Assembly: GCA_022627515.1 (NCBI GenBank)
Contig: JAKEGK010000067.1
Location: 1-35,572 of the forward strand
Length of the DNA stretch: 35,572 nucleotides
From: Gammaproteobacteria bacterium
Lineage (GTDB): Bacteria > Pseudomonadota > Gammaproteobacteria > SZUA-152
Direction: 5' to 3'
Position numbers and translations under genes: made by a program. Under the pieces are notes generated by a model. It made no database searches. It saw only the letters and a list, made by a program, of their open reading frames with translations, and was not told the origin of the DNA. This document shows, piece by piece, positions 3,165-27,506 of this stretch (positions are counted from its first letter, which is position 1; each line of letters begins with the position of its first letter).

Positions 3165-6100
3165 TTGCTTTTTGCAGCATGTTCCGGTGGCGGTGAGGGA
3201 GGAGGCGGTAGTAATGATAATGGGAACGATAATACAGCGCTAAATGCCGATCAACAGGCATTTTCCACTACATTGTATCCGATTCTTGAGAATAATTGCG
3301 CGGGTTGTCATAGCAACAATAGCGCCGTTGAAATTGAGCTTGCGAATTTTGCGCATAGCCAGGTTGTTTTAGCGCATGCCGTAGTTATCAATCGTGACCT
3401 GGTAAACCGGGAAAATCCCCAACTTTCCCGCTTTGTGGAACGGCTTGTGGATGACAAGCATTTCTGCTGGACATCATGCAGCGAGGATGCGAATACCATA
3501 GCCAATGCGATTGGGCGCTGGAATGATTTGCTCGCCAATACCGGCGGCGGAGGCGGCGGGACCGTGGTATCTCCGCAGGATAGCGTCAGTGCGTTTGCGC
3601 AAAGCCTGCATCCGGTAGTCGTGCAATGGTGCGGAACCTGCCATGATGGCGTCACTACCGCTTTTTCGGGTTTTGCCAATACTGACGCTGAGACGGCCCA
3701 CGAAATTACCTTGACCCGCGCGCTGGTGAATTTTAACAGCCCGGCTGATTCGGAACTGGTGACTTATCTATCCGAACTGGAGCATAACTGCTGCTCAAAT
3801 TGCGCAGACAACGCCGCGCGTATGCAGAGCGCCATAGTCGAGTGGATTGATTTAATGGCCGCTGCGGGTAATAACAATGGTAACAACCGGCCACCGATTG
3901 CAGTAAATGATCTTTACAACACGCTATCCAATGTGCCTGTCACAACGGGCAACGTGCTCCTCAATGACAGTGACGTGGATAATGATACTCTGGGAATTGC
4001 AAGTTACAGTGCTTTGTCCAGCCGCGGCGGCAGCATTGTTAACAATCTTAACGGTACTTTCACTTATACGCCGCCTTTTGGTATTTCAGGTGCTGATAGT
4101 TTTACCTACACTATCACGGATGGCCGCGGTGGTTCCGATGATGCAGTAGTTACGATTAACGTGATACTCAATAACGGCCCGGTAGCCACCAATGATTCCG
4201 TAAAAGCCAACCAGAACACGCCCCTGGTTATTACCACCTTGCTGGCCAACGATACCAGTTCATCAGCCAACGTGTTGACTATCGTTTCAACAGATACACT
4301 GTCCCAAAACGGCGGCAGAGTCTTGTTGGGCGCTGGTAACAGCGTTACTTATACACCCCCCACAGACTTCACAGGCATAGACCGTTTTATTTACACTGTC
4401 ACCGATGGCGTTGGAACAGCCACAGCGCAAGTCGAAGTGGATGTTAACGCGCAGCCGGTGGCTGTCAGCGATGCGGTGTATACCTACGTTAATATAACAG
4501 CGAATACCGGCAGTGTGCTCATCAATGACCGTGACACCAATGGCGATACCCTGACGGTTAGCTCATTTGATATCTCCAGTGTGCAGGCTGGCAGTGTCTC
4601 GTACAATGGCGACGGAACCTTTACTTATGTTCCGCCGGACAATTTTGAAGGCAATGACAGCTTTGATTATATTGTTTCCGATGGCAGGGGCGGTGCAGCA
4701 ACGGCGACCGTATTTATCGCGGTGACCCAGCCGGTTCTGCGGGATGACAACCGGTTCCTCGCATTTCTTAATCAGACATCACCGTTATTTGACGAAGACG
4801 CCAACAGCGCGCGTGCTTACTACGCGGCAATCGATCCGGCGAATCAGTGTACAACCTTGGATGCATGGCGCAATGTCAATGGTTTTAACATTGGAGCCGA
4901 TGCCTTTGCCGTATACATCAATAACAACGACCTTGGTTTTGCGCGGCGCATGTTTGTGCGTACCGACCCGATTACCGGCGTGGTGGCGTCTTACGTGGAA
5001 AACTTTGCCACGCTCGCCGACGCGTTGAACCAGGTCAACCTTATTGCAACTGTCGCTATGGAATATACCGTGGCCCCGGGGCAGGATCCTCTGGATCCAG
5101 ATGCGCGGCACTATACGACGTTCTATGTATTCAACGGCAACGGTAACCGCGACCTGGGAGCGGATCTGGACGGCCGTGGATTCAAGTTTGTCCCGGGCCT
5201 TTGCAACATCTGCCATGGCGGGCGTCCCAAAGCCCTGGTAAATGGCGCTTATCCTGACGCGGGTGAAACCGGTGGAGGCTTCATTCCCTGGGATCTGGAT
5301 ACTTACCTTTTCGCGGATGCAACCGCCAGCGTAAGCCGCGCGGATCAGGAGAATCAGTTCAAGATATTTAACCGGACTGTACTTTCCACCAATCCGGGTG
5401 CGGCGCAGCGGCAAGTGGTGGAAGGCTGGTATGGCGGTTCGGGATTGCCGGCGAATACGTTCAACGGCGGTTTTGTCCCGCCAGGCTGGTCTTTCCCTGA
5501 TGCGCCCGCCAATGCAACGCAACTGTATTTGCAAGTGGTTGCTCCGAGTTGCCGGGCCTGCCATGTCATGCGCGGCAGTCCGCAGCAGAGTGATATCGAT
5601 TTTTCGACCTATGCAAAGTTCATTTCATACAAACCACGCATTGAGCATCTGGTGTATGACGAAGGCACTATGCCGCTGGCATTGCGTACCTTCGACCGTT
5701 TCTGGAATAACATTAATATTCCTGAAACACTGGCGATCTACCTGAATTCATCCAAGATTCTGGAAGACGATGAGCTGTTGACGCCAGGCCGCTCCCTCGC
5801 CAACCCCGGCCCATTCCGCGAAGCGGCGATCGGCAGGATAAATCTGAATGGCAATGGCAGCCTGTTTACCGGAGGAAATATCGCGTTTAACTGGACCCTG
5901 GTCTCCAGGCCTGCGCAAAGCACCGCTATCCTTCAAAACGTCAATCAGGCGAACGCGTTCTTTGTCGCCGATGTGCCGGGCGATTATGTAGCGCAGTTAG
6001 TCGTTAATGATGGAATCGCGGAAACACCACCCAGTCCGCCTGGCGAAGTGATAATCCGCGTGTCGCCTGCCGTGCGACCGGTATCCTTTGTCAGTGATGT

Positions 6101-6350
6101 TTCGCCCGTGTTTGAACAGTGCGCGGTGTGCCACCTTGGATTTGATAACCCGCGGTTTAATAACCTGGGAACACTCTATGACAATGTCATCAACTTTGTT
6201 AATCTTGATGATCCTGTCAATAGCCTTATTCTCACGAAACCATCTGGTAACCACCATAACGGCGGCACCATTCCAGGATTCGAGACCAAAGCCAGTGATA
6301 AGTACAATTTAATATTACGCTGGATACTGGAGGGCGCGCCGGACAATTAA
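3165..6350 (+). CDS. Large multihaem lipoprotein-like protein with cadherin/VCBS-type repeats
   Basis: About 1,060 residues. The listed start (TTG 3165) only marks the intact frame. In-frame codons from 3132 encode RYRLVLLALAVLLFAAC, a lipoprotein signal peptide with lipobox FAAC, and an ATG with GGGAG lies at 3117; an in-frame TAA at 3129-3131 separates them. Five CxxCH c-haem motifs occur, at residues about 46 (CAGCH), 156 (CGTCH), 680 (CNICH), 796 (CRACH) and 986 (CAVCH). The first two are each followed by a Cys pair without His (CWTSC, CCSNC). Residues 242-523 are three roughly 94-residue Ig/cadherin-like repeats with FTYTPP and DGRGG motifs. Residues about 880-965 look like a PKD/Ig domain. 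Probably outer-membrane anchored and surface exposed, in redox or adhesion; the role is inferred. Confidence 0.8.
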   Translation: MLFAACSGGGEGGGGSNDNGNDNTALNADQQAFSTTLYPILENNCAGCHSNNSAVEIELANFAHSQVVLAHAVVINRDLVNRENPQLSRFVERLVDDKHFCWTSCSEDANTIANAIGRWNDLLANTGGGGGGTVVSPQDSVSAFAQSLHPVVVQWCGTCHDGVTTAFSGFANTDAETAHEITLTRALVNFNSPADSELVTYLSELEHNCCSNCADNAARMQSAIVEWIDLMAAAGNNNGNNRPPIAVNDLYNTLSNVPVTTGNVLLNDSDVDNDTLGIASYSALSSRGGSIVNNLNGTFTYTPPFGISGADSFTYTITDGRGGSDDAVVTINVILNNGPVATNDSVKANQNTPLVITTLLANDTSSSANVLTIVSTDTLSQNGGRVLLGAGNSVTYTPPTDFTGIDRFIYTVTDGVGTATAQVEVDVNAQPVAVSDAVYTYVNITANTGSVLINDRDTNGDTLTVSSFDISSVQAGSVSYNGDGTFTYVPPDNFEGNDSFDYIVSDGRGGAATATVFIAVTQPVLRDDNRFLAFLNQTSPLFDEDANSARAYYAAIDPANQCTTLDAWRNVNGFNIGADAFAVYINNNDLGFARRMFVRTDPITGVVASYVENFATLADALNQVNLIATVAMEYTVAPGQDPLDPDARHYTTFYVFNGNGNRDLGADLDGRGFKFVPGLCNICHGGRPKALVNGAYPDAGETGGGFIPWDLDTYLFADATASVSRADQENQFKIFNRTVLSTNPGAAQRQVVEGWYGGSGLPANTFNGGFVPPGWSFPDAPANATQLYLQVVAPSCRACHVMRGSPQQSDIDFSTYAKFISYKPRIEHLVYDEGTMPLALRTFDRFWNNINIPETLAIYLNSSKILEDDELLTPGRSLANPGPFREAAIGRINLNGNGSLFTGGNIAFNWTLVSRPAQSTAILQNVNQANAFFVADVPGDYVAQLVVNDGIAETPPSPPGEVIIRVSPAVRPVSFVSDVSPVFEQCAVCHLGFDNPRFNNLGTLYDNVINFVNLDDPVNSLILTKPSGNHHNGGTIPGFETKASDKYNLILRWILEGAPDN

Positions 6351-16434: not shown

Positions 16435-17547
16435 ATGAGTCACTCGTTTTACTACATGGCGCGTGATCAGCTGCAGGCGCTGATTAATGAGCTTCGTGCG
16501 CGGGGTTACCAATGCATTGGCCCACAGGTGCGGGATGGCGCGATTGTGTATGACAGCCTCGCCGATTGTACGCAACTTCCACGTGGTATATCCGAGCATC
16601 AGTCCCCGGGCCGCTACGTTTTATCGGAAAACAATAGCCAGCGCTATTTTTCCTGGGCGAATGGTCCACAGGCTATCAAGCCTTATGTTTTTGCGCCCAG
16701 GGAAAGTCTTTGGCGCTGCGAAAAAGACAACACCGGCCAACTCCGGTTCACGGATTTGAAGCCTGCGCCCGGACCGGTTGCTATTATCGGTGTGCGGGCT
16801 TGCGATCTGGCGGCATTATACATCCAAGACAAGCATTTTCTGCAGGAAGAGAAAAAGGATCCTTACTATCTGGCGCGCCGGCAGAAGTTATTTCTTGTTG
16901 CCGTCAATTGCACGCATGCCGCGGATACCTGCTTTTGCGCCTCGACCGGTGATGGTCCCCGCGCCAGTTACGGCTATGACATAGTGTTATCGGAGCTGGA
17001 TGATGGTTTTCTGGCGCATGGTCTTAGTGACAAGGGATTGGAACTCATCAAGCAACTTTCAACCAGTCCGCCAACGGAAACACAACTGCAACAGGCGGAT
17101 GAGGAAATCCAGCACGCGGCCCGGCGTCAAACGCGGCGTTTGCCGTCGCGTAATTTGAAGCAGGCCTTGTTTAATAATCTAGAGCATCCGCGCTGGGAAG
17201 AGGTTGCCAAACGATGTCTGGCGTGTGGTAATTGCACGTCCGTGTGTCCCACCTGTTTTTGTCATGCCGAAGATGAGGAGCCGGCGCTGGATGGAAGCGG
17301 CAGTGAATACTTCCGGCAGTGGGATTCCTGTTTTACGCAGGGGCACAGTTATATCCACGGCATCACGATTCGCTCGACAACGGCGCAACGTTACCGGCAA
17401 TGGCTAACGCATAAACTGGGAAGCTGGCACGATCAGTATGGCCGCTCCGGTTGCGTCGGCTGCGGGCGTTGTATTACCTGGTGCCCTGTCGGCATCGATA
17501 TCACCGAAGAAGCCGCCGCAATCTGTGGAGAGAACATCGATGCCTAA
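16435..17547 (+). CDS. hydB: Group 3b [NiFe]-hydrogenase (sulfhydrogenase) beta subunit, 4Fe-4S
   Basis: A 370-residue iron-sulfur electron-transfer subunit (HydB/HyhB type). The C-terminal third has two 4Fe-4S motifs: [16 protein letters not shown] (from Cys261) and [16 protein letters not shown] (from Cys340). The N-terminal two thirds hold the family motif [14 protein letters not shown] and further Cys ([10 protein letters not shown]). It passes electrons between the hydrogenase module and the flavin subunit and resembles the sulfite reductase/sulfhydrogenase beta chain. It is first in an operon whose next gene overlaps its end by 8 bases. Cytosolic; no signal peptide. Confidence 0.9.
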
Positions 17548-18373
17548 TCCCTACCTCCCATACGAAGCTAAAATTATTGAACGTATCCAGGAATCACCGA
17601 CGTTGTTTACCCTGCGCTTGCGTTTTACCGATCCGGTCATACATAAAGACTTCCGGTTTGAACCAGGCCAGTTCAACATGTTGTATTTGTACGGGGTGGG
17701 AGAAGTGCCGATTTCCATTGTATCCGATCCGCAGGATGAGCATATGCTGGATCATACCATTCGCACCGTGGGCCGGGTGACACGAGGCCTTGCCGCCCTG
17801 AAAGAAGGTGATCGCATCGGGGTGCGCGGTCCCTTTGGCCGCGGATGGCCATTGGCTCACGCGGAACAGCATGATGTGGTGGTGGTTACCGGCGGCCTGG
17901 GTTGCGCGCCCGTGGTATCGGTGATCCATTATATGATGCGGCGCCGGGAACGGTTCGGCCTGATCAATATTGTGCAGGGCGTCAAGCACTCCAGTGATTT
18001 CATCTGGAAAGAACGCTATGACCAGTGGCGGAAAGCACCGGATACGGAAGTGCTGGTGGCGGCGGATGCCGGTGAATCGTTATGGCCCTGGCATGTGGGG
18101 CCGGTAACCGGATTATTTGACGATCTGAAATTTGACAAAGACCGCGTGATTATCATGATGTGCGGTCCGGAAGGCATGATGCGCGTCGTGGTGAAATACA
18201 TGCTGGCGCAGGGCGTCGATGAAAGCGCAATATGGTTAAGCATGGAGCGTGACATGCATTGCGGTATCGGGCATTGTGGTCATTGCCAGTATGGCGGCAA
18301 ATTTGTTTGCCGCGATGGACCGGTATTTTGTTACAAGGAAATTGTAGACCTGTTCGGCGTTAAAGGATTTTAG
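17540..18373 (+). CDS. hydG: Group 3b [NiFe]-hydrogenase gamma subunit (FAD/NAD(P)-binding, 2Fe-2S)
   Basis: A 277-residue ferredoxin-NADP reductase-like subunit. The FAD-binding barrel includes [20 protein letters not shown]; the nucleotide-binding half has [15 protein letters not shown] and [11 protein letters not shown]-terminal 2Fe-2S site of the PyrK/HydG type begins at Cys241 ([13 protein letters not shown], then C and C). It exchanges electrons with NAD(P)H. Start ATG 17540 overlaps the stop of the beta gene and has GGAGAG upstream. The next gene begins 2 bases after its stop, so the subunits are probably translationally coupled. Confidence 0.92.
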
Positions 18374-18375
18374 TA

Positions 18376-19146
18376 ATGAAACCGAAAATTGCCGTGCATA
18401 AATTTGCTTCCTGCGACGGTTGCCAGTTGGCGTTTCTGAATGCCGGTGAAGATTTGCTGACCTTGGCCGGTATGGTTGACATTATCCATTTTACCGAAGC
18501 CGGACCGATTGATGAAGAAACTGAAGTTGATATTGCTTTTGTTGAAGGCAGTATCACCACGCCGGCCGATTGCAACCGTATCCAGCGGATTCGTAAAAAC
18601 AGCCGCTATCTGCTTACGATTGGCGCGTGCGCCACGGCTGGGGGATTGCAGGCGCTGCGTAACTTTGCCAATGCGAAAGAATGGGTTGCCTCGGTTTATG
18701 CCGCGCCGGAATATATTCAGTCACTGGCCACTTCGACGCCTATTCGTGAGCATGTTAAAGTGGATCTGGAATTGTGGGGTTGTCCTGTCAGTGCGAAGCA
18801 GGTATTACGTGCCGTGCATGACTTGTTGTTTGGTGTTACGCCAAAAGTGGAGCTGGATAAGGTTTGCATGGAATGCAAACGCCAGCGTCATGTGTGTGTG
18901 ATGGTCAGTAAAAATATTCCCTGTATGGGTCCTGTGACCCGCACCGGTTGCGGCGCCATTTGTCCGCAGGTGGGGCGTGGATGTTATGCCTGTTTCGGTC
19001 CGGCGGAGAATAGCAATACCGGGGCAATGGGTGTCTGGTTGCAGGGATTGGGCTTGATGCCGGAAGCGATTGCCAAAAGGTTTTTGTTTATCAACAGCGA
19101 AGCGCCCGAGTTTCGCGCGGCCGGGACGCAGTGGAAATCCAAATAA
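18376..19146 (+). CDS. hydD: Group 3b [NiFe]-hydrogenase small (delta) subunit
   Basis: A 256-residue small subunit that carries the electron-relay Fe-S clusters. The proximal-cluster motif CDGCQ is at Cys13/Cys16, with further ligands in IGACATAGG and LWGCPV. The distal region is CMECKRQRHVCVM, then IPCMGPVTRTGCGAICP and CYACFGP, giving the usual three-cluster ligand set. No Tat signal is present, so the enzyme is cytoplasmic, as expected for group 3. AAAGGA precedes its ATG. The downstream large-subunit gene begins 12 bases later. Confidence 0.93.
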   Translation: MKPKIAVHKFASCDGCQLAFLNAGEDLLTLAGMVDIIHFTEAGPIDEETEVDIAFVEGSITTPADCNRIQRIRKNSRYLLTIGACATAGGLQALRNFANAKEWVASVYAAPEYIQSLATSTPIREHVKVDLELWGCPVSAKQVLRAVHDLLFGVTPKVELDKVCMECKRQRHVCVMVSKNIPCMGPVTRTGCGAICPQVGRGCYACFGPAENSNTGAMGVWLQGLGLMPEAIAKRFLFINSEAPEFRAAGTQWKSK

Positions 19147-19195
19147 CTTTAAACGAAAATGACCGACCGTAAAAAAAATCAACATCGAAGTTCCC

Positions 19196-20458
19196 GTGCT
19201 TGCCCGGGTGGAGGGTGAAGGCGCGCTGGAATTATCGATCAAGGATGGCAAGATCGAAAAACTTCATCTGCGGATCTTTGAACCGCCACGCTTGTTCGAA
19301 AAACTGCTGGAAGGCCGTCCATATACGGATGTGATTGATATCGTGGCTCGCATTTGCGGGATCTGCCCGGTCGCCTATCAAATGAGCGCGGCGCATGCGA
19401 TTGATAGTATTTTTGGTGTAAATGTTAATCCGTGGGTACGAACCATGCGCCGCCTGATGTATTGCGGTGAATGGATAGAAAGCCATGCGCTGCACATTCA
19501 CTTGTTGGCGGCGCCGGATTATTTTGGTTTTGAGAACGTAGTGGCCATGGCGAAGCAATATCCGGATGAGGTGCGTCGCGGCTTGCTTCTGCAATCGTTG
19601 GGGAATCGCCTGTTGCGGCTGTTGGGTGGCAGGTCGGTGCATCCGGTGGGGGTGTGTGTGGGCGGATTTTACAGCGCGCCATCTGTTGACGCAGTAAAAA
19701 CGTTGTTAAAAGAATTTAAACAGGCCCTGCCGATGGCGGAGCAACTGGTGCGCTGGACAGCCGCATTTAATTTGCCGGATGACCAGCAACTGTTTACTTC
19801 GGTTGCGCTGTGTCACCCTCATGAATATCCGATGAATGAAGGGCGTATTGTATCAAGTTCAGGGCTGGATATCGCCATCAATGAATATCAGAATTATTTT
19901 ACCGAAACTCATGTACCACATTCCACGGCATTGTATTCACATTTTAACGGTCAGCCTTATCTTGTGGGGCCTTTGGCCAGGCTGAATTTGAACCTTGGTA
20001 AACTCCCGTCCGGTGTCCGGCAGCTGATTACAGAATCAGGTATTGCTTTCCCCAGCAATAACATGTTTCACAGCGTGATTGCCCGCGCCGTGGAAATTTA
20101 CTATGCGTTTGTCGAGTCGATTCGTATCATGGAGCAATATACGCTGCCCGCAGCGTCTTGCATGGACTTTTCCCCTAAAGCCGGAGTGGGGTATGGATGC
20201 ACGGAAGCGCCGCGGGGTATTTTGTGGCATCGCTATGAACTGGATGAAAAAGGTGATGTCGTAAAAGCCACTATTATTCCCCCAACCAGTCAAAACCAGG
20301 CCAGAATCGAGCAGGATCTGCAAACTTCGTTGATGTCCTTTGGGCTGGATCACGGCGATGATGAATTGCGATTGCGATGTGAAACAGTAATTCGAAACTA
20401 TGATCCATGTATTTCGTGTGCAACACATTTCCTGAAACTCAGAGTCGACCGGTCGTGA
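19196..20458 (+). CDS. hydA: Group 3b [NiFe]-hydrogenase large (alpha) subunit, frame broken at its start
   Basis: The catalytic subunit. The NiFe-ligand motifs are RICGICPVAY (Cys54, Cys57) and the C-terminal DPCISCATH (Cys405, Cys408). The terminal peptide after His411 (FLKLRVDRS) is presumably cut off by the next gene's protease. The listed start is GTG 19196, which leaves only MLARVEGEG before the core. The natural start is probably ATG 19159 (MTDRKK, then INIEVPVLARVEGEG), but an A8 run at 19171-19178 puts it one base out of frame; seven A's would give an intact 432-residue protein. This may be an assembly error, a mutation or slippage. Otherwise complete. Confidence 0.9.
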   Translation: MLARVEGEGALELSIKDGKIEKLHLRIFEPPRLFEKLLEGRPYTDVIDIVARICGICPVAYQMSAAHAIDSIFGVNVNPWVRTMRRLMYCGEWIESHALHIHLLAAPDYFGFENVVAMAKQYPDEVRRGLLLQSLGNRLLRLLGGRSVHPVGVCVGGFYSAPSVDAVKTLLKEFKQALPMAEQLVRWTAAFNLPDDQQLFTSVALCHPHEYPMNEGRIVSSSGLDIAINEYQNYFTETHVPHSTALYSHFNGQPYLVGPLARLNLNLGKLPSGVRQLITESGIAFPSNNMFHSVIARAVEIYYAFVESIRIMEQYTLPAASCMDFSPKAGVGYGCTEAPRGILWHRYELDEKGDVVKATIIPPTSQNQARIEQDLQTSLMSFGLDHGDDELRLRCETVIRNYDPCISCATHFLKLRVDRS

Positions 20459-20919
20459 AACCGGTAGCGATTATTGGTATTGGTTCACCCTATGGCGCCG
20501 ATCAGACTGGCTGGCGCGCGGTTGAGTTTCTCAAGCAGGATCACGCGCTGCAAATCCTATCTGACAATCAAATCAAGTTCATGAACTGTGACCGGCCAGG
20601 CCTGACGTTGCTGGACTATGTGGCTGATTCTGACTGCGCTATCTTGATCGATGCAATTGAGGGTGGCGATAGAGGTAATGTGATTCGAGTGGAGAAGAAT
20701 CAGCTATTGCACGATAGTGTCGGATTTTCCACTCACACTTTGGGAGTGGTAGAAGCCTTGACGCTGGGTACCCAGTTAAATGTTTTGCCGCAAACAATTG
20801 AACTGATCGGTATAGAGGTTGGTGATACAAGCTCGGACTACCTGCCTGAAGCCGGTACCTTTATTCAACTTAAACACGTCATTTATAATCTAATTCAAAG
20901 CTATTTCACATCGCGGTAA
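20455..20919 (+). CDS. Hydrogenase maturation endopeptidase (HyaD/HycI family)
   Basis: A 154-residue nickel-dependent protease that removes the C-terminal peptide of the large subunit after Ni insertion. Features are VAIIGIGSPYGADQTGW, the central DCAILIDAIEGG, the His-bearing FSTHTLGVVEAL, and LIGIEVGD. The second acidic residue of the usual DD/DE pair is Gln here. GTG 20455 is chosen because it overlaps the hydA stop (GTGA), which couples translation; an ATG at 20407 would lie deep inside hydA. No hypA-F genes are present, so the rest of maturation is encoded elsewhere. Confidence 0.88.
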   Translation: MKPVAIIGIGSPYGADQTGWRAVEFLKQDHALQILSDNQIKFMNCDRPGLTLLDYVADSDCAILIDAIEGGDRGNVIRVEKNQLLHDSVGFSTHTLGVVEALTLGTQLNVLPQTIELIGIEVGDTSSDYLPEAGTFIQLKHVIYNLIQSYFTSR

Positions 20920-21664: not shown

Positions 21665-22645
21665 CTATTTCACGTGGCAGGTCAGGCACAGCCCGCTGGG
21701 ATTCCCTTCGCCAGTGTTGACGTTGCCATTGCTTACCCGCAAGAAACTTGGGATAAACTGTGAATCCGGGCCATTGATAGGCACGCCATGTGGATCATGG
21801 CACGACGCGCACTCCACTTCGTAATTCTCGCCGGTGTTGTACATGCGGGGTTCATTTTTGTCCGGATAGGTATTACCGTTTCTATCATGAAACCACATAT
21901 CAGAGCCGGAAGCGTTGCTGAAGCCTTTGTATGGTTCAAAGAAATCAACGCCTATTTCCTTTCCGTAGGGACCCTCAGGATATTGAATGCCAATGGGGTG
22001 GTCATTTCTCAAATCAGTTCCTATCACAAACACCGTAAAGCTGGACATTGCTGTTTGGGAACTGTCGGTGTTATGACACAAAGTACAGAAACCCGCATCC
22101 TGTGTGGGCCCCATCCTGTAATGCAGGCCGACTGGTCCGGTTCTTCCACTTTGCCCCCACTGGTCCAGGAATGTGGAGTTCATTGCGGTTTCCTGCGCGC
22201 GATTATAAAAACCTGAGCCAGGCATATTGATGATTGAGTCGATGGAGATAGTGCCATCATGGCAAGTCAGGCAGGTGAGGGAGTTAGGTCCCGGTTGCCC
22301 GATGGGCCGATTCAACGTTCTAGGTTTGTCATAAATCTGGTATTCAGCGGTATTAATTGTGCGGTTCCATATAGGAGCATCTATCTGGCTGTTCGCACCG
22401 TGAGGTGTATGGCAGTACACACAGATTTCCACATACTGGTTCCGGAACAAATCCATAGCGTTACCCGCGCCACCGGCCTGCACGTTATAAGATAATGTTA
22501 AATTGTGGCGGGTGAATTCAATGCTATCCCGGTTGGGGGCTCGAGTGAAAGGATTCCAACCATCTGCTATAGCAGCGCTAATTGAAAAGAATACTGCAGA
22601 TATCGCAAAGACGCCTTTAAAGGCTTTGGATTTTAAACACCTCAT
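21665..22645 (-). CDS. Pentahaem c-type cytochrome (doubled-CXXCH type)
   Basis: A 326-residue exported cytochrome. The signal peptide is residues about 1-28 (KGVFAISAVFFSISAAIA). Five CxxCH motifs are present: CVYCH (75), CLTCH (125), CTLCH (about 191), CASCH (about 279) and CLTCH at the extreme C-terminus (320, ending HVK). The GTDLRNDHPIGIQYP motif supplies a probable distal His. ATG 22645 is preferred over TTG 22651 because GGGGAG is correctly spaced. The paralogue at 24120-24929 shares all motif positions, with an NHL propeller gene between them. It is probably periplasmic or surface electron transfer; partners unknown. Confidence 0.88.
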   Translation of the reverse strand: MRCLKSKAFKGVFAISAVFFSISAAIADGWNPFTRAPNRDSIEFTRHNLTLSYNVQAGGAGNAMDLFRNQYVEICVYCHTPHGANSQIDAPIWNRTINTAEYQIYDKPRTLNRPIGQPGPNSLTCLTCHDGTISIDSIINMPGSGFYNRAQETAMNSTFLDQWGQSGRTGPVGLHYRMGPTQDAGFCTLCHNTDSSQTAMSSFTVFVIGTDLRNDHPIGIQYPEGPYGKEIGVDFFEPYKGFSNASGSDMWFHDRNGNTYPDKNEPRMYNTGENYEVECASCHDPHGVPINGPDSQFIPSFLRVSNGNVNTGEGNPSGLCLTCHVK

Positions 22646-22946
22646 GCGCAAGCTCCCCTCATACTTTGTGAACCACTAGACTTCTAATCCCTCAGAAGCA
22701 GTGCCCCTCTTGCTGCTCTACCCACTTCTTTTACGGCATGAACAGCGGCGCGCGCTGTTATCCTTGGTCATTCGTTAATTTCTGTAGCTAGCTGCACAAC
22801 TAAAATGAAACTAACCAATTTTTGTTATAACGAAATTACCTTTAAACATTTGTAGTTTTTAAGGTTGAGTTAATCTAATAAAAATCCCTTAAGGTGTCAA
22901 TAAATTGGATCAATTATAAAGTACGTAAGAGATTAATCTGTTTTGA

Positions 22947-24047
22947 CTATTTCTTATTCTTACGAACAGAACTTAGCCATCCTTGGTCTGCCGCCAAATC
23001 GGCTGGCCGGAAAACATCCACTTTCTTAAAGTATTGGTCCACCAGATATACACGGCCATCTTCATCGACGGCGATACCTGCTGGCAGCATGTATTCACCG
23101 GGCTTGCCATCAAAACCACGGTCCCCCACGAACAATAATAATTGTCCTTGAGGATTGAATATCTGGAAATTACCAAACGCGGCATCTACCACATAAACGT
23201 TTCCCTCCTTGTCAGTTGCTATACCTTTGGGCCGGGAGAACTGACCGCTTCTGCGCCCAATAGCGCCAAAAGTAGACTTGAAGGTGCCGTCGTAGTTGAA
23301 TCCCTGAATTCTAAAGTTCCCTCCGTCCACCACATAACCTGTGCCGTCCGGGGCAGTCGCTGCCTGTAGAGGAAGATTGAACTGACCTTGTTCTGTGCCG
23401 CGATCCCCCACGGTCTTCAGATGTTCGCCAGAGAAAGCGTCAAATATATACAAATGATGTTCCTGAGAATCGACACCACCCGTGTCGACGACATAAATCT
23501 GTGCCCCGTCAGGGCTCACCGCTATCCCCGATGGCCGTTGAAAATACTCGCCTCCGCCAATTGCCCTCAGGTAGTTGCCGTCTTTGTCAAAGACTACGAC
23601 GCGCCGGGCGGTATTATCCGCAACATAGAGCGTGCCATTATTTTTGTCGATGGCGATACCAATTGGTTTGATAAGTTGACCGGTGCCTTCCTGCCCGATA
23701 ATTTTGAAATCTTTTCCCGGAGCATCAAATACCAGCACCACACGCTGCACTGTGTCGCTGACGTATACCCGGCCCTGGTACACCGCCACGCCGTAAGGTT
23801 TCTGTAATCCATAACCCGAGCCTACTGATCCCGTGGCAAACGTTTTAAAACGCTCCATGGATGTCGATTCTTTTACGTCGAAACTGGTCCTTAAAGTGCG
23901 TTCGTAAATAAAACGGGGTTTTTCTGGCGGTGGCGGATAGACAGGCGGTACGAACTCGCCATCCTTATGCCCGCGGGAGGAGCAACCGTTGAAAAAAAAG
24001 ACGCATAATAATAAAGCGATGAAATAGTAAGCAAGTTTCTTATGCAT
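22947..24047 (-). CDS. NHL-repeat beta-propeller lipoprotein
   Basis: A 366-residue protein. The signal peptide ends in lipobox FNGC, so the mature N-terminal Cys is lipidated. A Pro-rich linker (PPVYPPPPEKP) is followed by a six-bladed NHL propeller from about residue 75, with repeats such as LQKPYGVAV..GRVYVSD, LIKPIGIAID..LYVADN, RPSGIAVS..IYVVD, RPKGIATD..VYVVD and LPAGIAVD..VYLVD. Propellers of this kind mediate protein or ligand contacts. Flanked by two cytochromes on the same strand, it may be an assembly or docking factor for them, but that is inference from context. Confidence 0.88.
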   Translation of the reverse strand: MHKKLAYYFIALLLCVFFFNGCSSRGHKDGEFVPPVYPPPPEKPRFIYERTLRTSFDVKESTSMERFKTFATGSVGSGYGLQKPYGVAVYQGRVYVSDTVQRVVLVFDAPGKDFKIIGQEGTGQLIKPIGIAIDKNNGTLYVADNTARRVVVFDKDGNYLRAIGGGEYFQRPSGIAVSPDGAQIYVVDTGGVDSQEHHLYIFDAFSGEHLKTVGDRGTEQGQFNLPLQAATAPDGTGYVVDGGNFRIQGFNYDGTFKSTFGAIGRRSGQFSRPKGIATDKEGNVYVVDAAFGNFQIFNPQGQLLLFVGDRGFDGKPGEYMLPAGIAVDEDGRVYLVDQYFKKVDVFRPADLAADQGWLSSVRKNKK

Positions 24048-24119: not shown

Positions 24120-24929
24120 TTATTTCGTATGGCAGGTAAAACACAATACCTCAGCGTTTGCACGCAACAAAAGTTCGTTGGTAGTGTCGTGGACATTGTG
24201 GCAGGTCATGCACTCTACATTGCCTTCATAAAGCTTTACACCATTGTCGAAACCGTTTTGATGGTCGGGTGGACGAAAATCCGGATCATCCCAACCGAGG
24301 CCGGCATATTGCATTGATATTGGGTGGTCGTTTCGCAAATCCGTGCCGATTACTTTTACTTCAATGTTATGTGCAACTTGTCCGTTGTGGCACTTGCCAC
24401 AACTTTCAATATCGTCACTCGCATTGAGACGCATATGCATTGCATTGTCCTGGGTGGGATCAAATGTGACGGGTTTGAAAACGACCATGTCTACGGCCAT
24501 GGTGCCATCGTGACATGACAAGCAGAGCATGCTGATAGGATTAGGTGTTCCAGGTCTTGTATCCAGGGTTTGTGATCCTGACTGGGGATAGAGTTGATAA
24601 TTTTCAACGGCGGGAACAAAGCGGTTCCAATCCTGAATGCCCCCAAAATCCGCAGGCTGCGCTCCCGCTTCTTCAGGTGGAATATGACAGTAGACACAGG
24701 AATAGCCGTAATCGGAAAATGCAACGCCGGGCATAGCTACTACGCCAGCCCGATCATTCAAGCCGGTAAAATCATGTTTCGATCCAAGTATCGGATCGTC
24801 AGCCCCCAGCACCGGATCGCCGACGATAGCTACGGCAAACGCGTGCGATCCAAAAACCAGACTCAGTAATACTATAGATACCAGGAACAGACCAAAACAT
24901 GGTTTGATGTTTGGTGCTGTGAATTTCAT
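24120..24929 (-). CDS. Pentahaem c-type cytochrome, paralogue
   Basis: A 269-residue exported cytochrome. The signal peptide is about residues 1-32 (LFLVSIVLLSLVFGSHAFA). Five CxxCH motifs are CVYCH, CLSCH, CGKCH, CMTCH and a final CFTCH at residue 263, two residues from the end. It shares GTDLRNDHPISMQY with the cytochrome at 21665-22645 and the same C-terminal haem placement, so the two are related by duplication. It is 57 residues shorter, mainly in the loops before the fourth haem. It is first in the minus-strand cluster and divergent from the monohaem-type cytochrome gene at 25192. Electron transfer in the periplasm or outside the cell. Confidence 0.88.
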   Translation of the reverse strand: MKFTAPNIKPCFGLFLVSIVLLSLVFGSHAFAVAIVGDPVLGADDPILGSKHDFTGLNDRAGVVAMPGVAFSDYGYSCVYCHIPPEEAGAQPADFGGIQDWNRFVPAVENYQLYPQSGSQTLDTRPGTPNPISMLCLSCHDGTMAVDMVVFKPVTFDPTQDNAMHMRLNASDDIESCGKCHNGQVAHNIEVKVIGTDLRNDHPISMQYAGLGWDDPDFRPPDHQNGFDNGVKLYEGNVECMTCHNVHDTTNELLLRANAEVLCFTCHTK

Positions 24930-25191: not shown

Positions 25192-26502
25192 ATGCCGTTT
25201 CCAGGAAATTTGTTATTTTTAATAATAATCAGCGGTTTAAGCGTATTTGCAACGAATTTGTCCGCAGCGCCGCCAGTAGGGGAGCCGTCTTCGGTTACCA
25301 CCGGCGGTTTAAACGGCACGGCTGATGGAGCAAAGATTTATGCCGAGAATTGCGCCATATGCCATGGAGACAGCGGCGACGGTAACACCCGCGCGCAAAG
25401 CAGTTTGCGGCCGCCACCCCGTAACTTTACTACAGTGGCGGCTGCGCTGGAGTTGACGCGGGAACGAATGATTCACTCTGTTACCCATGGCCGTCCCGGT
25501 ACCGGCATGATGGCCCACAAAGATCGCTTAACGGAAGCGCAGATTGCAGCGGTAGTCGATCACATCCGCGATAAGTTCATGACCTTTCCTGAAGATAAAG
25601 AAAGCCGGGAACTGGTTAAACATGTGGAAGAGGAAAAAATTTATTCCAAACATTGCTCAGTATGTCACGGTGATAAAGGCGCCACGGCGGTCTGGGCGCG
25701 CAGTGGCTTGAATCCGCAACCAAGAGATTTTACTACGGCGCAAGCGCGTAAAGATCTGACGCGTGAACGCATGATTGCTTCAGTTACTAATGGCCGGCCC
25801 GGTACTGCGATGATGCCTCACAGAGACAAGTTGTCCGCCAGTGAAATCAGCCAGGTAGTGGATTATATCCGGGTAGCGTTCATGAGCGGGCCCATCGCGG
25901 TGGAATCCGAAATTCAACCTGGCATTGCGGCTCATCAGAACCTGCCGCAGGCTGCTTCACCTCGCATGCAGGGGCATCCGCAAATGCCTGGATTTAACCT
26001 GCCCGAATCAACCCAGAGTTCTTCCATGCGCGCCAATCCTCATCAACAGGATCCTCATCAAGGGGCGTATCCGGGTGGTGTGCCCGGTACGGCAGCGCCG
26101 ATTGGTCCTGTCGCCAGCGTTGATATGAGTGTACCCATGCCCAAGGGATTGAGGGGGAATATCGAGCACGGGCGTAAATTTTATATGAACAATTGCTTCA
26201 CTTGTCATGGTGTGAACGGTGATGGTAATGGACCGCGGGCGCATTTTAATACACCGAGGCCGCGCAACTTTACCAGCGAAGCATCACGCCGCATGTTGAA
26301 TCGGGAGCGTATCTTTAATTCCATTACCAATGGCAAGGTGGGGACTGTCATGCCTGCTTGGGGTAAGGTGCTTGATGAGCAGCAAATCGCAAACATTGCA
26401 GAGTTTGTTTTTACCGCTTTTATCGTTGTAAAAGAGTCTGCCGTGAGCGATAAAGACAAGCAAATTCAACAAGCCAGCCTAGACAAAAAAAAAGCCAACT
26501 GA
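25192..26502 (+). CDS. Tri-domain c-type cytochrome, probably N-terminal part of a longer protein
   Basis: A 436-residue protein with a Sec signal peptide (residues about 1-25). It has three class I cytochrome c domains with haem sites CAICH (54), CSVCH (155) and CFTCH (335). Each has a PRxFT strand and a Met-containing distal loop (GTGMMAHKD, GTAMMPHRD, GTVMPAWG). Between domains two and three (about 232-320) lies a Met-, His- and Pro-rich linker, unusual for this family and possibly metal-binding. It ends in SLDKKKAN right after an A9 run (26485-26493). The next ORF continues in another frame without its own signal peptide, so the two are likely one gene. Confidence 0.85.
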   Translation: MPFPGNLLFLIIISGLSVFATNLSAAPPVGEPSSVTTGGLNGTADGAKIYAENCAICHGDSGDGNTRAQSSLRPPPRNFTTVAAALELTRERMIHSVTHGRPGTGMMAHKDRLTEAQIAAVVDHIRDKFMTFPEDKESRELVKHVEEEKIYSKHCSVCHGDKGATAVWARSGLNPQPRDFTTAQARKDLTRERMIASVTNGRPGTAMMPHRDKLSASEISQVVDYIRVAFMSGPIAVESEIQPGIAAHQNLPQAASPRMQGHPQMPGFNLPESTQSSSMRANPHQQDPHQGAYPGGVPGTAAPIGPVASVDMSVPMPKGLRGNIEHGRKFYMNNCFTCHGVNGDGNGPRAHFNTPRPRNFTSEASRRMLNRERIFNSITNGKVGTVMPAWGKVLDEQQIANIAEFVFTAFIVVKESAVSDKDKQIQQASLDKKKAN

Positions 26503-26537
26503 TCCAATCTTCTCAGCAAGCGCAGCCTCACAGCGCT

Positions 26538-27506
26538 GTGCTTGCTGACGCTACGAATATCATTGCGCAGGTTTCTTCCCCTAAAGATGCCGGTCACGAA
26601 GCAGGACGGGCTATTTACAACTTTTATTGTTACTTTTGCCATGGCTATTCCGGAAACGCCAGAACACTGGCAGCCAGTTACCTGAATCCGAAACCGCGGA
26701 ATTTTTTAACGACGCCGCCCGATATCCTGTCGCGTGAGTCGATGATTGACGCTGTGACGCATGGCCGCCAGGGCACAGCAATGAAAAGTTTCAGTCATGC
26801 CTTGTCGTCGGCTGAGATCGAGGCTGTAGTCGATTTTGTGCGCATGGAGTTTATGGTAAACAAAGCGGAAAATACCCGTTATCATACTGTTGAGAACGGC
26901 TGGCCCAACCATGAACGGTATGCGCCGGCGTTTCCCTTTGCAATGGGTGAATTAGCCATTGATACACCCTGGGACTCGTTAACCGAAGAGCAACAACTGG
27001 GTAAACGGGTGTTTCTGGAAAGTTGCGTTACCTGTCACGACCGGGCAAAAGTCGAAGATGAAGGCGCCATTTGGGAATTGCGCGCCGTGTCCTATCCACG
27101 TAACCAATATTCCCACAGGGGAGATGACATGCCTGCGGCGGCTGATACAATGTCACAGGCTTCTCCTTACAAAAAACACGACCAGGCGCCGGTTATCAAG
27201 GATCTTTCACACAGTGAGAAACGGGGTCAACATTTGTTTCAGAGTAATTGTGCTTTCTGTCACGCGGCGGATGGCACCGGGAAAAACTGGATTGGCAGTT
27301 TTCTGGATTCCCATCCCCGCAACTTGACGGATGCCGGTTTCATGGGAACCATGACTCGTTCACGTCTTAAAAAAGTGATTCAGGAAGGTTTGCCGGGCAC
27401 CACTATGTCAGCCTGGAAACATGTGCTGAAAGATGAAGAGATTGACAGTATTATTGATTATATTAGCCGTAGTTTTCATCCGGTCGCGGATGAAAACACA
27501 AAATAG
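26538..27506 (+). CDS. C-type cytochrome with three haem motifs, lacking a signal peptide
   Basis: 322 residues from GTG 26538. Haem sites are CYFCH (31), CVTCH (163) and CAFCH (238); the first and last are class I domains closely like those of the previous gene (PRNFLTTPP, GTAMKSF; PRNLTDAG, GTTMSAW). There is no signal peptide and no ribosome site, so alone it would not reach the periplasm for haem attachment. Its frame is open upstream through the A9 run. A minus-one shift there would join it to the previous ORF, giving a protein of about 771 residues with six haems. It is therefore best read as the 3' part of a single gene. Confidence 0.8.
   Translation: MLADATNIIAQVSSPKDAGHEAGRAIYNFYCYFCHGYSGNARTLAASYLNPKPRNFLTTPPDILSRESMIDAVTHGRQGTAMKSFSHALSSAEIEAVVDFVRMEFMVNKAENTRYHTVENGWPNHERYAPAFPFAMGELAIDTPWDSLTEEQQLGKRVFLESCVTCHDRAKVEDEGAIWELRAVSYPRNQYSHRGDDMPAAADTMSQASPYKKHDQAPVIKDLSHSEKRGQHLFQSNCAFCHAADGTGKNWIGSFLDSHPRNLTDAGFMGTMTRSRLKKVIQEGLPGTTMSAWKHVLKDEEIDSIIDYISRSFHPVADENTK

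Follow-up and report, generated by a model that had tools for sequence, protein, structure and literature searches.

The two adjoining cytochrome frames described here, ORF1 and ORF2, lie in a 35,572-nt stretch of gammaproteobacterial DNA, the whole of which is called the window. They are read, with a probability of about 0.9, as a single gene, recoded in a programmed way, that would encode two c-type cytochromes, a triheme short form and a hexahaem long form. Most transcripts or ribosomes would yield ORF1 only, an exported triheme cytochrome. A fraction would be shifted by -1 at a run of nine adenines (A9) and would then enter ORF2, giving a 771-residue hexahaem protein exported via the signal peptide of ORF1. 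In the mechanism proposed, RNA polymerase would insert an extra A at the run, and ORF2 would be in frame in the resulting A10 mRNA. Both proteins are very probably made, judging from the conserved site, the relation of the two frames, the selection on ORF2, the missing leader, and the replacement of the site in one genus.

Reading frames at the junction

The features of the locus are collected in Table 1. ORF1 has CxxCH motifs at 25351, 25654, and 26194 and three Cytochrome_CBB3 domains (Pfam). It begins with the N-terminal leader MPFPGNLLFLIIISGLSVFATNLSA, and its last codons are GAC AAA AAA AAA GCC AAC TGA. The first-pass annotation had placed A9 at 26485-26493, at the end of the first ORF, and these coordinates proved to be exact. 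The CxxCH motifs of ORF2 are at 26628, 27024, and 27249, and Pfam domains of the Cytochrome_CBB3 and cytochrome c kinds are present in ORF1 and ORF2 alike. No signal peptide was found for ORF2; the earliest codon at which it could start, a GTG at 26538, is not followed by a hydrophobic leader. The CBB3 domains and the lack of a leader after this GTG bear out the earlier description of a downstream ORF with haem domains and without a signal peptide.

When one A was added to the run in silico, or two were removed, a single frame of 771 residues with six CxxCH (residues 54, 155, 335, 480, 612, and 687) was obtained, in agreement with the ca. 771 residues and six motifs that had been predicted for a -1 shift. 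Removal of one A left 23 stops. The locus thus has the characteristics of a multihaem c-type cytochrome, i.e. six CxxCH, CBB3 domains, and a leader on ORF1 only. Runs of nine A's are rare in this genome, a 4.45-Mb draft in which they occupy about 48 separate positions, counted over both strands.

Table 1. Features of the cytochrome locus and its neighbors in the window
Feature	Coordinates	Strand	Remarks
Second doubled-CXXCH cytochrome, five CxxCH	21665..22651	-	orthologues in same-family loci L039 and L040
NHL-repeat beta-propeller, probable lipoprotein, divergent	22947..24047	-	beside the pair in 17/17 loci checked
Doubled-CXXCH cytochrome, five CxxCH, divergent	24120..24929	-	beside the pair in 14/17 loci checked
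ORF1	25192..26502	+	exported triheme c-type cytochrome, 436 aa; would also make up the N-terminal portion of the hexahaem protein
ORF2 open frame, -1 relative to ORF1	26454..27506	+	putative C-terminal triheme half of the long product; own start and leader absent
A9, putative recoding (slippage) site	26485..26493	+	phase AAA AAA AAA; A9 or A10 in 66 loci
Zero-frame stop TGA	26500..26502	+	6 nt 3' of the run; ends the short product

Conservation of the run among relatives

The window's order consists of one family, represented by 24 genomes; the window's own genome was the sole representative of its genus in the sample. All 20 same-family loci that were read at the junction had exactly A9 in the same place, with ORF2 leaderless and in the -1 frame and the ORF1 stop shortly 3' of the run. 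Their ORF2 proteins were 62-68% identical to that of the window. In an eight-way DNA alignment of the junction, the only invariant columns were the nine A's and one isolated G.

The wider sample came from a class-wide search of 369 genomes, 37 of which had a strong ORF2 homologue, and from a GTDB contig scan and order-level searches; together, these yielded 87 distinct loci that could be classified. Of these, 55 combined a leaderless ORF2 with 9-10 A's at the junction. In 29 others, the run was missing, and ORF2 was a gene apart that began with a hydrophobic leader. The remainder were one in-frame fusion (L124) and two loci (L116 and L122) in which both the run and the leader were absent. One further order was added later, and the poly-A set thereby grew to 66 loci, the window included: 58 with A9 and eight with A10, from dozens of species in at least 13 gammaproteobacterial families (f1, f22, f23, f37, f53, f71, f75, f76, f77, f81, f101, f125, and f128). 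In each of the 65 poly-A loci whose frame could be assigned, ORF2 was in the -1 frame. This relation was constant, and the run itself occurred in all three codon phases (0, 1, and 2). A zero-frame stop lay 1-12 nt 3' of the run in 60 of 65 loci. Between loci, the flanks were 31-33% identical, a level close to that of random DNA, and the run 100%.

The poly-A loci share descent, so these counts are not independent trials; even so, the presence of the same run at the same junction in 66 loci points to a recurrence far beyond chance. A conserved run of nine with split frames across relatives had been named beforehand as the pattern that would support programmed shifting, and it was found in 20 of 20 same-family loci and in at least 12 further families. 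On the tree of loci, four to six changes among the classes were needed, with weak support for the deep branches. One genome (G014) carried two copies of the locus, L075 and L092, both with A9, reflecting either a paralogue or a mixed bin.

Selection on ORF2 and its probable dependence on ORF1

For 11 close pairs of relatives, the dN/dS of ORF2 was mostly 0.04-0.14 (maximum 0.23), and the invariant positions comprised the haem ligands and many others. ORF2 is evidently under purifying selection, as judged from these comparisons, and would be a translated, functional sequence. An ATG before its haem domain was absent in 62 of 65 poly-A loci, and in 35 of the 65 there was no ATG, GTG, or TTG. Attachment of haem c takes place outside the cytoplasm. 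In the poly-A loci, a leaderless ORF2 could not be exported as a cytochrome in its own right; the only simple route to haem attachment would be its translation as an extension of ORF1.

Among the 29 runless homologues, ORF2 has its own leader, and the short form corresponds to ORF1 alone. Where ORF1 could be assigned, ORF2 was already in the -1 frame in 15 of 24, often via a stop-start overlap. This prior relation suggests how the recoding arrangement could have arisen. The case that the first-pass annotation had regarded as refuting, a second gene equipped with a start and a signal peptide of its own, thus exists in 29 relatives, all of them runless, and not in the poly-A loci. A fused intact ORF in relatives, also foreseen there, was encountered in one lineage only, and all 65 assignable poly-A loci were out of frame. 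In that lineage (L124; G213:C38), the two cytochromes are fused in frame in one ORF without an A run, from which the hexahaem protein would seem to be viable as one chain.

Replacement of the run in one genus

Nine loci from genus g76 (family f71) form one clade (support 100/99), in which the heptamer G_GGA_AAG, of the phage lambda type, appears at the junction. L143 has A9, L144 has A9 and G_GGA_AAG, L145 has A8 and G_GGA_AAG, and six loci (L116, L148, L150, L152, L156, and L157) have G_GGA_AAG alone. The heptamer is in the phase of ORF1 in all eight loci that carry it. A GGAG lies 14 nt upstream of it in six of the eight, and a consistent downstream fold was not seen. In E. coli, G_GGA_AAG is highly shift-prone (PMC5009743).

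In g76, the -1 transition therefore appears to have outlasted a change of site, which probably started from A9, the form present in neighboring lineages. Since one genus has exchanged the A run for a ribosomal heptamer, selection would seem to keep the output of two products in some ratio, and not the mechanism.

Probable mechanism of the shift and alternative explanations

The first-pass annotation had proposed a dnaX-like -1 shift on A_AAA_AAA, with transcript slippage listed as an alternative. Programmed -1 recoding is supported by the present results; the emphasis on the ribosome should be shifted somewhat, since the pattern of A9 conservation fits transcript slippage better. In the 56 phase-0 A9 loci, the first AAA codon was always kept (56/56), and only 8.4% of nearby NNA codons were AAA. 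The invariance of a codon that is rare in its surroundings suggests that the run of nine is itself selected. For A_AAA_AAA in phase 0, the last seven A's of the run would suffice, but the two that precede them are invariant as well; likewise, the length of the run is conserved and its codon phase is variable. No downstream RNA structure was detected at A9 (mean z of -0.27 vs. -0.22 in control windows), and no Shine-Dalgarno peak or enrichment was found upstream of it. Frameshift stimulators are common but not obligatory. The two extra A's, the constant length, and the missing stimulators all favor slippage, and on comparative evidence the site has what a slippage site should have: a conserved junction homopolymer of about nine or more that depends on length and not on phase. 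Nine A's is the length at which slippage by bacterial RNA polymerase is efficient (PMC5009743), and selection against runs is evident at nine in many genomes (PMC1088944). In the GeneTack survey, a nine-A chelatase cassette gave a 40% shift in E. coli (PMC3711429).

Programmed -1 ribosomal frameshifting on A_AAA_AAA within A9, in the manner of dnaX and IS elements, would yield an identical pair of proteins without any heterogeneity in the mRNA. A zero-frame heptamer of the form X_XXY_YYZ is present in every phase seen, and the ribosomal heptamer of g76 lies in the same gene. We nevertheless consider this reading rather unlikely given the invariance of the two dispensable A's and the lack of stimulators; moreover, the more efficient A_AAA_AAG occurs in no poly-A locus. 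Transcriptional slippage is, with fair assurance, the likelier event at A9, and both processes could contribute there.

Other explanations dispense with recoding. Homopolymers are prone to error, and a single base would restore the frame, so a missing A in the assembly, or a frameshift mutation newly arisen in a single genome, had reasonably been listed at the outset. The same out-of-frame run is found in 66 loci from independently assembled genomes of at least 13 families, and an unrelated slippery heptamer substitutes for it in one genus, which reduces the probability of such an error to almost nothing. A pseudogene reading was likewise all but ruled out by the conserved -1 run of the relatives and the purifying selection on ORF2. 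Two separate genes, with ORF2 expressed from an internal start or by translational coupling, would resemble the 29 homologues that are separate genes, many with stop-start overlaps. However, a leaderless ORF2 would receive no haem c outside the cytoplasm, and in 35 of 65 loci no candidate start codon precedes the haem domain; such an arrangement is very improbable. Phase variation, in which the long form would be switched on in some cells and off in others as the DNA run changed in length, is slightly less probable still. A poly-A tract in an envelope-protein gene is a typical contingency site (a general point in PMC3711429), but in-frame run lengths were observed in 0 of 65 loci, where about one-third would be expected under free length drift, and G_GGA_AAG would not phase-vary.

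Under the preferred reading, that of a recoded gene with two products, the short form very probably matters too, in line with tssM1 (see below). A frame is most easily restored at a homopolymer, but the poly-A loci are without exception out of frame, and only one of the lineages read is fused.

Neighboring genes and possible function

Of the 17 loci checked, all have the NHL gene and 14 a doubled-CXXCH cytochrome next to the pair, both where ORF2 is separate and where it is recoded. Searches of PDB sequences with the ORF1 and ORF2 halves returned only generic cytochrome c and CcoP matches, and both halves are class-I-like haem domains. An AlphaFold model of the ORF2 core had a mean pLDDT of 69.5 and was not used. 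The simplest interpretation of the gene order is that the products would form an envelope electron-transfer unit with the neighboring pentahaem cytochromes and the NHL protein.

Counterparts of the NHL protein, the doubled-CXXCH cytochromes, and the triheme cytochromes seen here also occur in the undecaheme electron transfer (UET) locus known from Tenderiales and Gallionella (PMC10734462). However, UetDEG are described as being of the cytochrome c7 type (PMC10734462), and ORF1 and ORF2 are of the CBB3/class I type. Membership in UET was rejected on this ground, and because no undecaheme (UetJ) protein was seen and the neighbors have five CxxCH.

Elsewhere in the window, a 1061-residue ORF (3165-6350, + strand) combines several CxxCH with Big_9/cadherin-like repeats, an unusual adhesin-like and haem-binding mixture. 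An operon for a cytoplasmic-type [NiFe] hydrogenase (16435-20919, + strand) encodes a 4Fe-4S protein, an NAD-binding reductase, the small and large subunits, and a maturation protease.

Implications

Conserved recoding is uncommon in chromosomal, non-mobile genes of bacteria, and to the known cases the present locus would add a family of multihaem cytochromes that extends over at least 13 families of Gammaproteobacteria. Annotation of such loci would show two genes or a pseudogene. The swap in g76 constitutes a natural experiment in which it is directly testable whether the output or the mechanism is under selection, and the arrangement is relevant to the question of how the electron-transfer proteins of the envelope are balanced against one another. 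As a speculation to which we give little credence, the triheme:hexahaem ratio might itself be a control point, with polymerase slippage at A9 responding to nucleotide pools or transcription rate. In that case, the makeup of the envelope electron conduit would be matched to the energy state of the cell, and selection on the ratio would explain both why so mutable a run has not drifted into frame and why a ribosomal heptamer can replace it.

Comparison with known recoding systems

No earlier case of recoding in cytochromes was found in the literature searched, which included the main text of the GeneTack survey (PMC3711429); the word "cytochrome" is absent from that text. The magnesium chelatase case of the survey resembles the present one in that -1 recoding at poly-A joins two annotated genes and fused in-frame homologues exist elsewhere; the gene is a different one, and its run lengths are 7, 9, and 11 vs. 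9-10 here (PMC3711429).

In Citrobacter rodentium tssM1, transcriptional slippage occurs at A11, and the system needs each of the two forms as well as a certain ratio between them (PMC4256274). There, too, the poly-A lies just 5' of a stop, and slippage lengthens an envelope protein. However, that run has 11 A's, belongs to a gene for type VI secretion, and has been described from C. rodentium and a single Yersinia locus, whereas the cytochrome run of 9-10 is spread over at least 13 families and would join cytochrome domains. The gpG-gpGT pair of phage lambda also has a low-level -1 shift giving a short and a long form in a set ratio (PMC5009743); its product is a tail chaperone and not an exported haem protein, and the lambda-type heptamer is found in genus g76 only.

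The nearest parallel is dnaX, for which Thermus thermophilus uses transcriptional slippage at A9 and E. coli a ribosomal -1 shift at A_AAA_AAG (PMC1088944; PMC5009743). The two systems share an A9 site, two length variants, and homologues that rely on slippage of the transcript in some cases and on a ribosomal heptamer in others. They differ in that the slipped product of Thermus is the shorter one, whereas the shifted cytochrome would be the long one. The gene families are unrelated, and in the cytochromes the apparent swap of mechanism took place within one genus, in which an intermediate with both sites is preserved.
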